From the NCBI GenBank assembly GCA_000155695.1, contig DS990592.1:4415820-4479819 (forward strand): a stretch of 64,000 nt of DNA. The letters are read 5' to 3'. This document shows, piece after piece, positions 1-4,018 of this stretch. Each line of letters begins with the position of its first letter. The first letter of the stretch is position 1. Below the pieces are notes generated by a model. That model made no database searches, was not told where the DNA came from, and was given only the letters and a program-made list of their open reading frames with translations. The translations under genes and the position numbers were made by a program. The stretch comes from Verrucomicrobiia bacterium DG1235. GTDB lineage: Bacteria > Verrucomicrobiota > Verrucomicrobiia > Opitutales > Opitutaceae.

Positions 1-489
1 ATTGACGGTACCGGAGGGTTTGCCGGAGCCGCTGAAGAGGCCGTTGGCGCCGCGCAGGATTTCGACGCGCTGGTAGAGAGCGGTGTCGAACTCTTGATTT
101 GTGTCACCGCTGTAGGTCGGGATGCCGTCGACTTGGAAGTCGGTGATTTGGAAGCCGCGCGAGAAGTAGAGGGGGCGCTGGGTGTCGTACATGGACACGT
201 TGACTCCGGTGACGTTGCGCATGACGTCGTCCATGTTGTACATGGATTCCGCTTCGAGGCGGGAGCTGTCGATCAGGCTGATCGTCTGCGGCGTTTCTCG
301 GTCGGAGAGCGGTAGGCGGGTGGCGGCCCCGATGGTGTCGTAGTTGTCGCCGAATACGGTAAAGCCGCTGAGCTCGAATGCTTGGTCTTCGGTGACTGGC
401 GCGTCTACGCTGTTTTGGGCGCTGGCGGTGCCGGCGAATCCGAGCGTACCGAGGGCGCATCCTGTGAGGAGTGATTTCAGGTTTTTCAT
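1..489 (-). CDS. TonB-dependent siderophore receptor, N-terminal part (cut by window edge)
   Basis: Outer-membrane receptor that would import a ferric siderophore using TonB energy. The first 163 residues are visible; the rest lies beyond base 1. A signal peptide covers about residues 1-24 (cut near ASA|Q). A TonB-box-like stretch ELSGFTVFG follows at 39-47. The plug domain is clear: RETPQTISLID (64-74) and VEILRGANGLFSGSG (142-156), hallmarks of the siderophore subgroup. The ATG at 489 is chosen because the signal peptide begins there. A PchR-like AraC regulator and a ferritin lie nearby on the same strand, which fits an iron-uptake role. A tandem AraC-type element lies about 97 bp upstream. 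The siderophore itself cannot be deduced. Confidence 0.93.
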   Translation of the reverse strand, partial: MKNLKSLLTGCALGTLGFAGTASAQNSVDAPVTEDQAFELSGFTVFGDNYDTIGAATRLPLSDRETPQTISLIDSSRLEAESMYNMDDVMRNVTGVNVSMYDTQRPLYFSRGFQITDFQVDGIPTYSGDTNQEFDTALYQRVEILRGANGLFSGSGKPSGTVN

Positions 490-585
490 CTTTGAATCCA
501 GTTTGTGCTATCGATGGAGGCCCGCGGTTGCGCGAGTGAATCCATCTGCGAGCACGATAGCGCGATGGGCGGTTTGGTTTCCGCC

Positions 586-618
586 CCGTAAGGGATTCTG
601 GATGCTCCGTGACGGATT
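586..618. promoter_or_regulatory. Tandem 12-bp element, candidate AraC-family operator of the siderophore receptor
   Basis: Two direct half-sites, CCGTAAGGGATT (586-597) and CCGTGACGGATT (607-618), start exactly 21 bp apart, two helical turns. The same arrangement recurs at 2894-2926. AraC regulators of the PchR/YbtA type bind such tandem direct repeats; assigning it to the regulator at 2988-3926 is inference. The site is also upstream of the divergent gene starting near 826. The rest of 490-825 shows nothing else convincing. Confidence 0.6.
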
Positions 619-825
619 AATCTTGTTCAGTAAAAGCAGCGGTATCCTAGGGTAGTTGTCTGTTTTTTGGATTGGTACTTTTTCAAGTTGGGCAAATTTC
701 AATGAATCCGATTGTTCGTCTCCGTGACGAACCGCTCGATCGCTCAGTGGGGTAGGTTAGATTACATTTTCGTAATGTTGGGATTTGGGAGGAAACGCGA
801 TCGGCACGCGTGGGTCATTGCGGCG

Positions 826-1590
826 ATGCGGAATATTTTCTTTTCTCTGTTTTTTGGTTTACTGGGCTCGGCGTCTACGGCTTTTGCCGAGGATAGTTTC
901 GAGGGACGGATCGACTACGAGATAGATAGCGGCGGTCAGGTTTGGAGGTATGCGGTTTGGCTGAAGGGGGACCTGTGGAGATCGGAGCTGAGGAGCGGTC
1001 AGCAGGTTTTCGAATTGCGTATTGGGAATTCTGAGACGGGGGAAGCGTTTCTTGTGAATGAGGCGGGCGAGAGTTTTCGCTCGATTGGTGCAGGGAGCTT
1101 TGGGCCGGGACCGGCGGGGTCGCCGCCGGGAGATGCTAGGGGGAAGAAGAAAAAGGGAGGGAAGCCCGTGGACCTTGAGAAGGTGGTTGTGGTAAATAAG
1201 CGGTATTTGGATTTGCTTGGTCGAAGCGCTCAGCTGGAGGAACTGAAGGGGCCGGGAAAGAGGTTGCAGCTTTGGTGGGTGGATGATCTCGGAGCGATTT
1301 CGGGCATGGCTATTCCGCGATTGAAGGCGTTGGAGGAGAAGAAGGGCTTGATGCCTTTGTACTTTGAGGAGCGGGAGGCGGTTCCGCTATTGATCGCGCT
1401 GCCAAATGCGAAGGGAAAAAAAGCATTTTCGATGAAGGCGGTTGGGATCGAAGCTATGGAGATCGAAGATGCGTTCGTGACATTGCCCGATGGATACAAG
1501 CCAGAGATGGGTGGGCGGCCGATGGGCGGCGGTGGAGGTGGCGGAAGGCCGAGAGGCGGCCGTCCCACGGGGCCGCCTCCGGGAATGTGA
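826..1590 (+). CDS. Secreted protein of unknown function with Gly/Pro/Arg-rich tail
   Basis: A 254-residue protein starting with a clear signal peptide (MRNIFFSLFFGLLGS, cut after AFA near residue 20). The frame is open upstream to 712, with another ATG at 775, but those starts would bury the signal sequence, so the ATG at 826 is preferred. The mature part opens FEGRIDYEIDSGGQVWRYAVW, resembling DUF4412-like exported proteins; this is a weak resemblance only. A lysine-rich patch (GKKKKGGK) and a low-complexity tail GGGGGGGRPRGGRPTGPP stand out. It is divergent from the siderophore receptor and could share its control region. Function unknown; periplasmic or outer-membrane location inferred. 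Confidence 0.7.
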   Translation: MRNIFFSLFFGLLGSASTAFAEDSFEGRIDYEIDSGGQVWRYAVWLKGDLWRSELRSGQQVFELRIGNSETGEAFLVNEAGESFRSIGAGSFGPGPAGSPPGDARGKKKKGGKPVDLEKVVVVNKRYLDLLGRSAQLEELKGPGKRLQLWWVDDLGAISGMAIPRLKALEEKKGLMPLYFEEREAVPLLIALPNAKGKKAFSMKAVGIEAMEIEDAFVTLPDGYKPEMGGRPMGGGGGGGRPRGGRPTGPPPGM

Positions 1591-1974
1591 ACGAAATGCT
1601 TGCAGGCTAGACCGTTTTTTGGGGAACCAGTCGCCTGAGAGTGTGATGGAAATGGGGTGGATGTCGCGGTTGGGTCCGCCTTCGGGGCGACGGCCGCTTT
1701 CGCCGTGTTGGTGAGCTCCACCTCCTTGCCCGCCTTGTTGGCGACCGCCACCGCGACGGCCTGATGAGGCTGGGATGGAGATCGCTTCCCAATTGGGGTT
1801 CCACGACTGGGTGATTTCGAAGCGTTGCTGGAGCGAGATAGGCCGACTGCGCATAGTGGCGTCGGTTTCGACGGTTTGCTCGGCGGGGGCTCGCGTGAGC
1901 GAGGGGTCGAGGATTTCGTTGGCGAGGTTTCTGGACCAGCTGTACGAGAACACGGTTCCGGTAACGGATCGCAA
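1591..1974 (-). pseudogene. Possible remnant of an outer-membrane protein gene (weak)
   Basis: Reading the minus strand from about 1974 gives a protein-like stretch: FSYSWSRNLANEI, then RFEITQSWNPNWEAIS, a Gly/Gln/Arg-rich run, and ISITLSGDWFPKK near 1615. Alternating aromatic/polar residues and the glycine-rich segment recall C-terminal strands of TonB-type outer-membrane proteins. There is no good start (TTG only), it lies behind the terminator-like hairpin at 1980-2015, and the frame then runs antisense into the gene ending at 1590. A broken gene end is the best guess; it may also be non-coding. Confidence 0.22.
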
Positions 1975-1979
1975 ATGAA

Positions 1980-2015
1980 ATAACTCTTTTTCGTAGCCAT
2001 ACGAAAAAGAGTTAT
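1980..2015 (-). terminator. Perfect 16-bp hairpin downstream of ferritin
   Basis: Bases 1980-1995 pair perfectly with 2000-2015 around a 4-base loop GCCA. It begins 51 bp after the ferritin stop. The stem contains A/T runs, so it could work as a terminator in either direction, between ferritin and the converging gene that ends at 1590. Confidence 0.65.
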
Positions 2016-2065
2016 GGATGTGAGAAGGGTGGGAGGCGTTTGAGCCTCTTTTTATGGGGTCGGGC

Positions 2066-2569
2066 CTACTCCTCTTCGGGCCCGCGGTTGCCTGCGAGGG
2101 TGTCGAGCATCATCAGGGCGTCTGGGTTTTCGCCGGCTCTCTTTATCTTTTCGATCATGTCGCTGACGTTTTTCTCTTCTTCGACTTGCTCGTCGACGAA
2201 CCACTTGAGGAAGGAGACGGTGGCGTAGTCGGCGGAGTCGTGGGCAATCTTATAGAGATTGTTGATGGCGGCGGTCACTTTCTTCTCTTGCTCGAGGCTG
2301 GATTCGAAGACGGCGAGTGGGGAAGAGAACTGGTGAACAGGGGCTTCGAGGGCGGGGAGTTCGATGTCGGCGCCGCGGTCGAGCAGGTAGGTGTAGAACT
2401 TCATGGCGTGCTCGCGTTCTTCGTCACTCTGCATGGACATCCAGCTGGCGAATCCGTCCCATGAGTTGGCTTCGAAGTAAGCGGCCATGGAGAGGTAGGA
2501 GTAGGAGGCTTGGAACTCCATGCCTATTTGAGCGTTGAGGGCTTGCTTGAGTTCGGTAGGTAAATTCAT
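2066..2569 (-). CDS. ftnA: Ferritin (bacterial FtnA type)
   Basis: Iron-storage protein that oxidises Fe2+ at a di-iron centre and stores ferric mineral in a 24-mer shell in the cytoplasm. At 167 residues it has normal family length. The ferroxidase ligands are all visible: E18, E51 and H54 (in SDEEREHAM), E95, and Q128 with E131 (in VDEQVEEE). It ends with an acidic tail. It starts 103 bp after the stop of the Cys-rich gene at 2672-2842 on the same strand, so the two may share a transcript controlled by the AraC-type site at 2894-2926. A strong hairpin follows the stop. Confidence 0.95.
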   Translation of the reverse strand: MNLPTELKQALNAQIGMEFQASYSYLSMAAYFEANSWDGFASWMSMQSDEEREHAMKFYTYLLDRGADIELPALEAPVHQFSSPLAVFESSLEQEKKVTAAINNLYKIAHDSADYATVSFLKWFVDEQVEEEKNVSDMIEKIKRAGENPDALMMLDTLAGNRGPEEE

Positions 2570-2671
2570 GGGGCTAAGTTAGATCGGAGGGATCCGCTTG
2601 TCCAGTGTGGCGAGGATTAGAATGTGAGATTTTTGCCTGTGAAGCTTGGATTTGGGTGTCGCTCGATGACT

Positions 2672-2842
2672 CTAGCCGATCTTGAGCTTGCGGGCTTTGC
2701 AGAGGTGGTCGCCGCAACCGGCGACGCGGGCGCACTTGCCGCAGACGAACTTTGGCTGGCAGACGAGGAGCTGAATTTCGTCGAAGTGTTCCTTGAAGGC
2801 GGACTTCTTGATGCCGCAGAGCGATTTGATTTTCAGTTTCAT
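2672..2842 (-). CDS. Small Cys-rich protein (56 aa), possible metal or Fe-S binder
   Basis: A 56-residue basic protein beginning MKLKIKSLCGIKKSAF. It has six cysteines (9, 28, 34, 37, 43, 48), including a CxxC in FVCGKCARVAGCGDHLC, plus His46. This pattern suggests a small zinc or iron-sulfur site; no named family is claimed. It is flanked by the AraC regulator (2988-3926) and ferritin, all on the minus strand. A tandem AraC-type element sits 52-84 bp before its start, the same element found before the siderophore receptor. It is short enough to be missed by gene callers. Coding status is supported by the ordered cysteine pattern and context. Confidence 0.7.
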   Translation of the reverse strand: MKLKIKSLCGIKKSAFKEHFDEIQLLVCQPKFVCGKCARVAGCGDHLCKARKLKIG

Positions 2843-2893
2843 AGCCGTGTTAGAGGCGGAGAGTTTAACGGGAGAAAGGGGTGGAAGGCTGCT

Positions 2894-2926
2894 CCGAGAG
2901 GGATTTTGGCCGCTCCGGGAGGGATT
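2894..2926. promoter_or_regulatory. Tandem 12-bp element upstream of the Cys-rich gene, candidate AraC operator
   Basis: CCGAGAGGGATT (2894-2905) and CCGGGAGGGATT (2915-2926) are direct half-sites starting 21 bp apart. Spacing and orientation match the pair at 586-618 upstream of the siderophore receptor. The element sits between the end of the AraC-type regulator and the start of the small Cys-rich gene, in promoter position for the latter and possibly for ferritin. Confidence 0.6.
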
Positions 2927-2987: not shown

Positions 2988-3926
2988 CTAGTGGCTGGGG
3001 GAGATTTCGGAGGGGTTGAGGCCGTAGGCTTCTTTGAAGGCGCGGGCGAAGTGGCTGGGGTTGCTGTAGCCGACGGCGTTGGCGATTTCGATGACGCTGC
3101 GCTCTCCGGCTTGGAGGAACTCGCGGGCGCGCTCCATGCGTTTTTGTCTCAGGTATCCGAATACGGTGGTGCCGAATCGTTCCTTGAAGCCGCGTTTGAG
3201 CTTGAATTCGTTTAGGTGGACGGTTCGGCTGAGCTGGGCGATGGAATGGTCTTCGCCGTAGCGGGTTTCGAGGATGCGGGCGGCGGCAGCGAGGGCGAGC
3301 TCGTCGCGGGAGGCCCGTTGGGGGACGATGGCGCGGCAGGGGGAGAAGGCGGGCTGGTCGAGCAGAAGGGCGAGCCACTCGAGGGTCTTGGCCTCGATGA
3401 GGAGGCGTTCGCGAGTGTTCGCTCCTTCGAGTTCGGAGAGTTCCTGGCCGAGGGCGAGGAGTCGGCCGGCGGCGGATCCGGAGTTGAGGAAGCTTTTGTC
3501 GGGATCGAGGAGCTGGGGGGAGACGGTGTCGGAGAATCCGGTGAGGCTAGCGGCGGCTTGCTCGTCGAACTCGAGCCAGTGGAGCTGGCAGGTTTGCTGG
3601 CAGGAGAAGTGGAAGGGGAGTCCGGCGGGCTTGACGAGAGCCCAGTCTCCGCTGGCGCAGTGGTTTAGGTCGGAGTCGTTAGGGGCGAAGGCGATGTGTC
3701 CTTGGGAGACGAATACGATTTGCAGGTGGGATTTGCCCGGCCATGCGAGGCGTTGACCATTGGTTGCTTGATTTACATTTGCGTGAACGAGGGCGATGCC
3801 GGGGCGTTGCTCGAAGCGTCGGATGTCGATCGCTTGGTCGCCGACTGGCAGCGTGAGGCGCGACGGTGCCTTGAAAGGGCAATAGGTCGTCGGAGCGGAA
3901 CGCGTGCTCGCATCTTGGTCTGGCAT
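2988..3926 (-). CDS. AraC-family transcriptional regulator, PchR-like
   Basis: A DNA-binding regulator, probably of the siderophore genes. The C-terminal ~110 residues form the double helix-turn-helix: IAQLSRTVHLNEFKLKRGF with GTTVFGYLRQKRMERAREFL is the form typical of PchR/YbtA-like siderophore-responsive regulators, and IANAVGYSNPSHFARAFK is the second motif. The N-terminal part would sense the ligand. ATG 3926 gives 312 residues; a TTG at 3992 would add 22 residues of uncertain coding value. It is unusually close to its likely targets: the Cys-rich gene, ferritin and, 2.5 kb away, the receptor. A Fur-box-like sequence lies about 75 bp upstream. Confidence 0.88.
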   Translation of the reverse strand: MPDQDASTRSAPTTYCPFKAPSRLTLPVGDQAIDIRRFEQRPGIALVHANVNQATNGQRLAWPGKSHLQIVFVSQGHIAFAPNDSDLNHCASGDWALVKPAGLPFHFSCQQTCQLHWLEFDEQAAASLTGFSDTVSPQLLDPDKSFLNSGSAAGRLLALGQELSELEGANTRERLLIEAKTLEWLALLLDQPAFSPCRAIVPQRASRDELALAAAARILETRYGEDHSIAQLSRTVHLNEFKLKRGFKERFGTTVFGYLRQKRMERAREFLQAGERSVIEIANAVGYSNPSHFARAFKEAYGLNPSEISPSH

Positions 3927-3999: not shown

Positions 4000-4018
4000 A
4001 TTGAGACGCATTCGCATT
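4000..4018. promoter_or_regulatory. Weak Fur-box-like sequence upstream of the AraC gene
   Basis: On the minus strand this reads AATGCGAATGCGTCTCAAT, an imperfect dyad resembling AATGAGAAT-n-ATTCTCATT. It lies about 75 bp before the ATG at 3926. If real it would place the AraC regulator under iron (Fur) control. The match is partial. Confidence 0.3.

Follow-up and report, generated by a model that had tools for sequence, protein, structure and literature searches.

A stretch of 64,000 nucleotides from Verrucomicrobiia bacterium DG1235 (assembly GCA_000155695.1, contig DS990592.1, positions 4,415,820 to 4,479,819; hereafter the window, with positions counted from its first letter) raises the question of why two pairs of short direct repeats recur there beside iron-related genes, and which protein reads them. 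The pairs, at 586-618 and 2894-2926, had been described in an original prediction, made from the window's letters alone, as half-sites in the same orientation spaced 21 bp apart, and this description was borne out. From the computed sites, promoter geometry, target genes, conservation and co-occurrence with an AraC-family protein, we infer that the paired sites are the on-switch for a conserved iron-uptake gene set of this marine bacterium, probably worked by the neighbouring AraC-type protein, and assign this reading a probability of roughly 0.83.

Paired Sites in the Window and the Genome

On both strands of the 64-kb window, the pattern CCGNNANGGATT-N9-CCGNNANGGATT matches only these two pairs, which also account for every one of the window's four half-site copies, and 100 shuffles of the window yielded no match. 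The whole-genome search proposed with the original prediction retrieved the exact pattern twice in 5.78 Mb, both times in the window. When up to three mismatches were allowed, the genome contained 16 matches, as opposed to none for the reversed pattern. This control is too lenient and understates chance, because, at ≤2 mismatches, the pattern is also matched in 30 of the 81 related genomes devoid of the AraC protein; a site model was relied on instead. Seven of the 16 matches are clustered in one orientation within 17 kb around the left edge of the window (C6:4401916-4418745), six of them upstream of a minus-strand gene or unit and the seventh, an orphan site, without a gene behind it. An unlinked site (58140) heads a reductase operon encoding PepSY, DUF2271, DUF4198 and ApbE proteins. 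The genome holds at least eight such sites, seven clustered and one unlinked, and the "small regulon" that had been envisaged does not stand. The remaining eight matches, site 99070 (two mismatches) among them, were rejected as chance, none being among the model hits at E≤0.1.

Gapless alignment of the eight sites showed the full unit to be longer than first noted, with the consensus GCYCCGAGAGGGATT-N6-GCYCCGAGAGGGATT; in the gene-ward reading it consists of AATCCCTCTCGGRGC, six bases, and AATCCCTCTCGGRGC again. In the window, this unit corresponds to two predicted tandem AraC-type operators on the minus strand. Operator A (583-618; model E 6.7e-6), with two 15-bp half-sites 21 bp apart, lies in the promoter of TonB receptor 1, and operator B (2891-2926; model E 2.4e-7) lies 61 bp behind the araC stop codon in the promoter of a gene for a Cys-rich mini-protein.

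Promoter Layout

The site model, a sequence-only model built from the eight own sites and run on 95 related genomes, returned 62 sites at E≤0.0182, 61 of which were read for downstream genes. Alignment of these 61 sites revealed, besides the site itself, conservation of TA...T at positions +58 to +63, counted from the site start. TANNNT occurs at exactly +58 in 35 and within one base of this position in 43 of the 61 sites, compared with a mean of 0.63 at 71 offsets outside 57-59. The corresponding predicted -10 boxes in the window are TATCGT in the receptor promoter (554-559, minus strand) and TAAACT in the promoter of the Cys-rich gene (2862-2867, minus strand), each one base beyond the commonest spacing from its operator. 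The gene-proximal half-site ends at the expected -35. Neither the site nor its immediate surroundings (columns 34-41 of the 61-site alignment) show a conserved -35 resembling TTGACA, so that the promoters seem to need assistance. The sites have the arrangement expected of direct-repeat AraC/XylS operators, a pair of direct half-sites spaced by about two turns of the helix with the near one at -35, and the predicted layout is that of a class II activator promoter of the AraC type.

The sites would then be operators on which a dimer of the AraC-family protein (gene 2988-3926) occupies both half-sites from the same side of the DNA, a 21-bp spacing corresponding to two helical turns. With the near half-site over a poor -35, the bound protein would recruit sigma70 RNA polymerase to a -10 at a near-fixed distance, and transcription would run into the TonB receptors and their PepSY partners (probable reductases), the PepSY/DUF2271/DUF4198/ApbE operon, a two-gene unit and the Cys-rich gene.

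Co-occurrence of the Sites and the AraC Protein

All 62 model sites fall in 14 of the 95 genomes (G000-G007, G015, G019, G038, G063, G067 and G089), six of which lie outside Pelagicoccus. The AraC protein is matched at 147-705 bits in exactly those 14 genomes and in none of the other 81 at ≥140 bits, the next-best genome reaching 121 bits. That the same genomes carry both makes this protein the probable reader of the sites, as had been proposed. Twelve weaker model hits reach E 0.1, and the next hit after the cut-off (0.0211) lies in another genome. A direct pattern search at ≤2 mismatches, for which the reversed-pattern control gave four matches over all 95 genomes, found two to eight copies in each of the eight Pelagicoccus genomes; it is noisy at this looseness, matching 43 of the 95 genomes, with one or two matches in each of the 30 that lack the AraC protein. 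One genome, that of Puniceicoccaceae bacterium K14 (G015), contains 13 pattern matches, several of them on contig C65 (L067, L068), which suggests an expanded regulon.

The sites are also present in orthologous promoters. The 27 AraC-relative loci of Opitutales and their nearest relatives (438 kb) contain 27 sites scoring ≥25, of which 20 precede a gene like one of the iron cluster described here, and no site was found in the reversed sequence of these loci; the other 53 of the 80 AraC-relative loci (1,055 kb) contain a single site. Nine of the 27 loci, with 16 of the 27 sites, belong to the 14 genomes already counted, so that 11 sites are from other loci. A weak site-like sequence (score 19.3) stands before a receptor at L019:2389.

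Genes Behind the Sites

The site family precedes TonB receptors and the Cys-rich gene, as had been predicted. A TonB receptor follows 31 of the 61 sites, an extracytoplasmic function (ECF) sigma gene and then a receptor one, a PepSY unit five and a solute-binding protein one; families with a known uptake role are thus found behind 38 sites. The others stand before the Cys-rich gene (8), the p100/p284 unit (7), an RNA-like element (3, one with a thioredoxin-like gene further downstream), a contig end (1) or other genes (4). Targets in the own genome comprise four receptors, most with PepSY partners, the two-gene unit, the Cys-rich gene, the reductase operon and the RNA-like element. Clusters of PepSY, DUF2271, DUF4198 and ApbE have been linked to electron transfer across membranes and to iron reduction (PMC8238504), and one such locus is described as a Fur target in Caulobacter (PMC12004947). 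The operon found here shares all four families with these known clusters and differs from them in its AraC-type site. The sites provide a ready list of iron-uptake promoters together with a candidate regulator, and tie three uncharacterised protein families (the 56-residue Cys-rich protein, p100 and p284) to iron. Behind one site in G067, the receptor gene is split in two open reading frames (ORFs; L085:3993-6125), reflecting a frameshift or an assembly error.

The Proposed Regulator and Its Own Promoter

The proposed reader of the sites is encoded on the minus strand at 2988-3926 (312 amino acids from ATG; HTH_18, PF12833, 1.2e-22). Contrary to the original prediction, its gene does not lie between the two pairs but to the right of both, the space between them being taken up by the Cys-rich gene, a ferritin gene and a plus-strand ORF. 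Receptor 1 with site A is near the regulator gene, 2.5 kb separating receptor 1 and araC, and a site is located 16-61 bp behind the araC stop codon in G000, G001, G003, G004, G007 and G038. An AlphaFold2 model of the protein (28 sequences; predicted local distance difference test (pLDDT) 89.5, predicted template modelling score 0.62) consists of an N-terminal beta barrel, helices and two helix-turn-helix (HTH) motifs, the latter forming the two-HTH DNA-binding part typical of AraC. Among PDB structures, it is matched best by ToxT and Rns, followed lower down by the sensor domains of BgaR and AraC. The protein had been called PchR-like; neither PchR nor AlcR is among the best 25 of its 35 NCBIfam matches, with the presence of a PchR model in the library left unchecked, and the matches to the RhrA (3.1e-6; residues 226-308) and Btr (1.1e-6) models are confined to the DNA-binding part. 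Outside the main Pelagicoccus branch, many AraC orthologues share four conserved Cys residues, with the N-terminal Cys present in 19 of the 28 aligned rows, a CX2C in 17 and a later PC in 15. In the protein of the window, only the N-terminal one of these aligns.

A Fur-box-like sequence, TGCGAATGCGTCTCA, is located upstream of araC (4002-4016, minus strand) and matches 11 of 14 consensus positions, a score of ≥11 being reached by 51 of 2000 shuffles; ATTGACAG follows within ~15 bases. When the best match within 300 nt of araC was taken in each of the 14 genomes, 12 of 14 positions were matched in four genomes (1 of 2000 shuffles) and at least 11 in nine (51 of 2000 shuffles), the boxes of G005 and G067 being far upstream. 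TTGACA follows the box in eight of the 14 genomes, and each of the eight Pelagicoccus genomes contains three or four Fur-family genes. The Fur-like box before araC is convincing in some of the 14 genomes only, and Fur likely acts above araC. Control by iron would probably be exerted through Fur repressing araC, and a second signal may act on the AraC protein itself, either the arriving ferri-siderophore or haem or else iron coordinated by Cys residues.

An RNA-Like Element Behind the Same Sites

Behind the orphan site lies an RNA-like element of ~60 nt (G000:C6:4401874 to 4401799; L018, minus strand) made up of TTTTCGGAAACAC, a short gap, GTC.TTAGAG and a strong terminator-like hairpin. Further copies follow sites in G001, G002 (two), G003, G006 and G007, and in G004 the start of an element stands at a contig end. 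A search with the 5' sequence brought up the second G002 copy, which has a site with a -10 at +58 in front of it. Both conserved parts are altered in G006, and the G003 copy carries a single-base insertion. No iron gene accompanies the element at three of the sites; in three genomes, it stands before the Cys-rich gene. The seven copies share 11 consensus pairs, four of them changed on both sides, and the five copies that were folded gave z-scores of -2.8 to -6.1. Rfam gave no matches at gathering thresholds in five loci (79.5 kb). An RNA model run on 37 genomes retrieved no convincing further copy, since only its seven source sequences fell below E 1e-7 and the next match was at 0.003. These features hint at a candidate small RNA driven by the same sites, which would be a candidate iron-starvation small RNA for this phylum. 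A PepSY remnant of 96 amino acids (C-terminal part of PF03929; L018:16911-17201, minus strand) runs into the orphan site and appears to be a sign of a lost or rearranged module.

Alternative Explanations

Several points weigh against an iron-uptake switch worked by the AraC protein. Both co-occurrence cut-offs (E≤0.0182 and 140 bits) were set after the results had been seen, and eight of the 14 genomes belong to one genus. Five other genomes (G023, G039, G052, G081 and G087) each contain one weaker model hit (E 0.02-0.09), and 29 further genomes have AraC matches below 140 bits, many of them to the HTH only. Among the 27 nearest AraC loci, some of which are short, 13 have a site scoring ≥25 in the DNA examined and 14 do not. 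TANNNT is missing within one base of the common spacing in 18 of the 61 sites, and four sites precede genes without an evident iron role (a porin, an EF-hand protein and, at two sites, a GH5 gene). Moreover, targets were classed mostly by BLAST against the proteins of the own cluster, the Cys-rich and p100/p284 classes counting as "iron" by association only, and binding of the AraC protein to the sites is deduced from co-occurrence and nearness.

Alternatively, the reader might be a different regulator (a paralogous AraC protein, a two-component regulator or an ECF sigma factor), the sites being no more than travelling companions of araC and the iron genes. One of the sites in G015 drives an ECF sigma gene that a receptor gene follows, and RNA-type sites in G000 and G002 lie beside sensor kinase and response regulator genes. 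However, strong sites and the AraC protein are present or absent together across the 95 genomes, also outside the genus. Direct half-sites two turns apart that end at -35, combined with a TANNNT -10, fit an AraC dimer and sigma70 better than an ECF promoter, and among the 24 of 36 candidates that were scored, only one protein of the own genome matches AraC at E≤1e-10. Another reader is improbable. That the AraC protein is a repressor, blocking the promoters when iron or haem is plentiful, seems very improbable. The near half-site over -35 is where a repressor could act as well, and an AraC/XylS protein of Vibrio cholerae, IurV, reportedly takes part in repressing genes for iron uptake (PMC7600106), but the lack of a conserved TTGACA-like -35 at the sites speaks for promoters that need assistance, whereas the araC promoter itself shows this motif after its Fur-like box in more than half of the genomes. 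Activation by the AraC protein remains the preferred reading of the sites. As for the RNA-like element, the chance that it is a leader or the remnant of a rearranged receptor module, and not a small RNA, is only slightly below even. The orphan site follows the truncated PepSY gene; the copies in G001, G003 and G007 stand before the Cys-rich gene and contain an ATG in the reading frame of that gene; and other genes come after each copy in G002 (a thioredoxin-like gene; ~100 bp on, a cation-efflux gene). On the other hand, the 5' part (TTTTCGGAAACAC, then GTCNTTAGAG) is kept although the hairpin sequence differs, and this conservation is the stronger argument for a small RNA, because terminators alone also show paired changes. 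Both G002 copies end in T5-T6, and the orphan promoter retains a TATACT -10.

A bolder extension, which we consider rather unlikely, would make the AraC-type protein a master iron-starvation activator below Fur that drives a trans-acting RNA of ~60 nt, a functional analogue of RyhB/PrrF, as well as its own Cys-rich partner, the latter probably translated off a shared mRNA in several relatives, through the overlap of stop and start codons. The four Cys residues (N-terminal CP, CX2C, linker PC) of relatives outside the main Pelagicoccus branch would then serve as a direct iron or Fe-S sensor.

Comparison with Known Systems

PchR-type activators are known to serve one siderophore system each, and the PchR and AlcR regulator genes are under Fur control; a PchR box was reportedly described by Michel et al. 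in 2005. At araI1-araI2 of E. coli, the spacing is 21 bp and I2 overlaps the -35. The system described here resembles the PchR type in that an AraC-family protein is encoded near a TonB receptor gene and is predicted to act on receptor promoters, and in the likely Fur control of the regulator. It differs in its range, with a single type of site serving the Cys-rich gene, a flavin-reductase operon, PepSY proteins and four dissimilar receptors. PchR, AlcR, YbtA, DesR and PbtA are listed as siderophore-responsive AraC activators (PMC8639528). The two-operator layout is also like that of E. coli AraC, described as acting at two proximal operators where the activated protein recruits RNA polymerase (PMC4760080), whereas the target genes and the half-site sequence are different. 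With IurV (VCA0231), the system shares an AraC/XylS protein on several iron-uptake genes (PMC7600106); IurV is reported to be involved in repression, with direct action left open, whereas the layout here points to direct activation. In the portions of the literature reached by our searches, no paper on iron regulation in Pelagicoccus or on this system was found. Judged by sequence, the operator and regulator are of a known kind and serve an uncommonly broad range of iron genes; the RNA-like element and a 4-bp overlap of araC and the Cys-rich gene in relatives are newly found.

The Cys-Rich Mini-Protein

The mini-protein of 56 amino acids (2672-2842, minus strand) belongs to no Pfam or NCBIfam family. 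Its residues C9, C34, C37 and C48 are invariant in 10 orthologues, and its model has no confident fold (pLDDT 56.8). A Pfam search with nine orthologues gave weak zinc-finger-like matches, each in one or two of the nine, and none for the window's own protein. The araC stop and the start of the Cys-rich gene overlap by 4 bp in five of 24 AraC loci (L094, which is the same locus as in G019, L096, L098, L103 and L104) and in G006. In G000, G001, G003 and G007 there is no overlap and an operator lies between the two genes, and in G002, G005 and G015 the genes are apart. Because the genes overlap or flank an operator, their arrangement suggests that the mini-protein works with the AraC regulator. 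It is not bound to AraC, since 39 of 387 genomes from the phylum have relatives of it; these are next to ferritin in two of the 17 such loci compared.

Anatomy of the Iron Cluster

The window contains the right end of a larger iron cluster. On the minus strand, from right to left, araC (3926-2988) is followed by site B, the Cys-rich gene, ferritin and site A with TonB receptor 1 and PepSY 1. Then come a site with receptor 2 and PepSY 2, a site with receptor 3 and PepSY 3, a site with p100 and p284, a site with receptor 4 and a PepSY piece, and the last site without a gene. The N-terminal part of receptor 1 lies in the window (1-489, minus strand; Plug, PF07715), the rest of its 722 amino acids being encoded to the left (full in L017). 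Its assignment to the siderophore-type receptors in the original prediction was supported by TIGR01783 (306.7 bits, cut-off 223.5); the score reaches 468.5 with the FauA model (own cut-off 900) and 467.4 with the FhuE model (own cut-off 666), below the threshold in both cases. The closest resemblance of receptor 2 is to haem receptors, yet below their cut-off. A 16-bp palindrome, GCATTCTCGAGAATGC, is located in L017 between the start of receptor 2 (9890) and its site (9938).

The ferritin gene (2066-2569, minus strand; PF00210, 4.8e-45) lies 102 bp behind the Cys-rich gene, which it adjoins in several relatives, and has no site of its own. An ORF of ~254 codons on the plus strand (826-1590) encodes a protein with a Gly/Arg-rich tail and no Pfam match; relatives are found near the ferritin gene in G001, G002, G004 and G007. 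The two-gene unit p100/p284, of unknown families (L017:1628-2482 and 2490-2804, minus strand), has the same sites upstream in several genomes. A haem-handling role of p284 was considered and dropped as a guess without support from PDB, Pfam and NCBIfam searches, which gave no PDB sequence match at E≤1 and no significant match in the other two databases. The seven p284 orthologues share an invariant C.CC.SPG motif.

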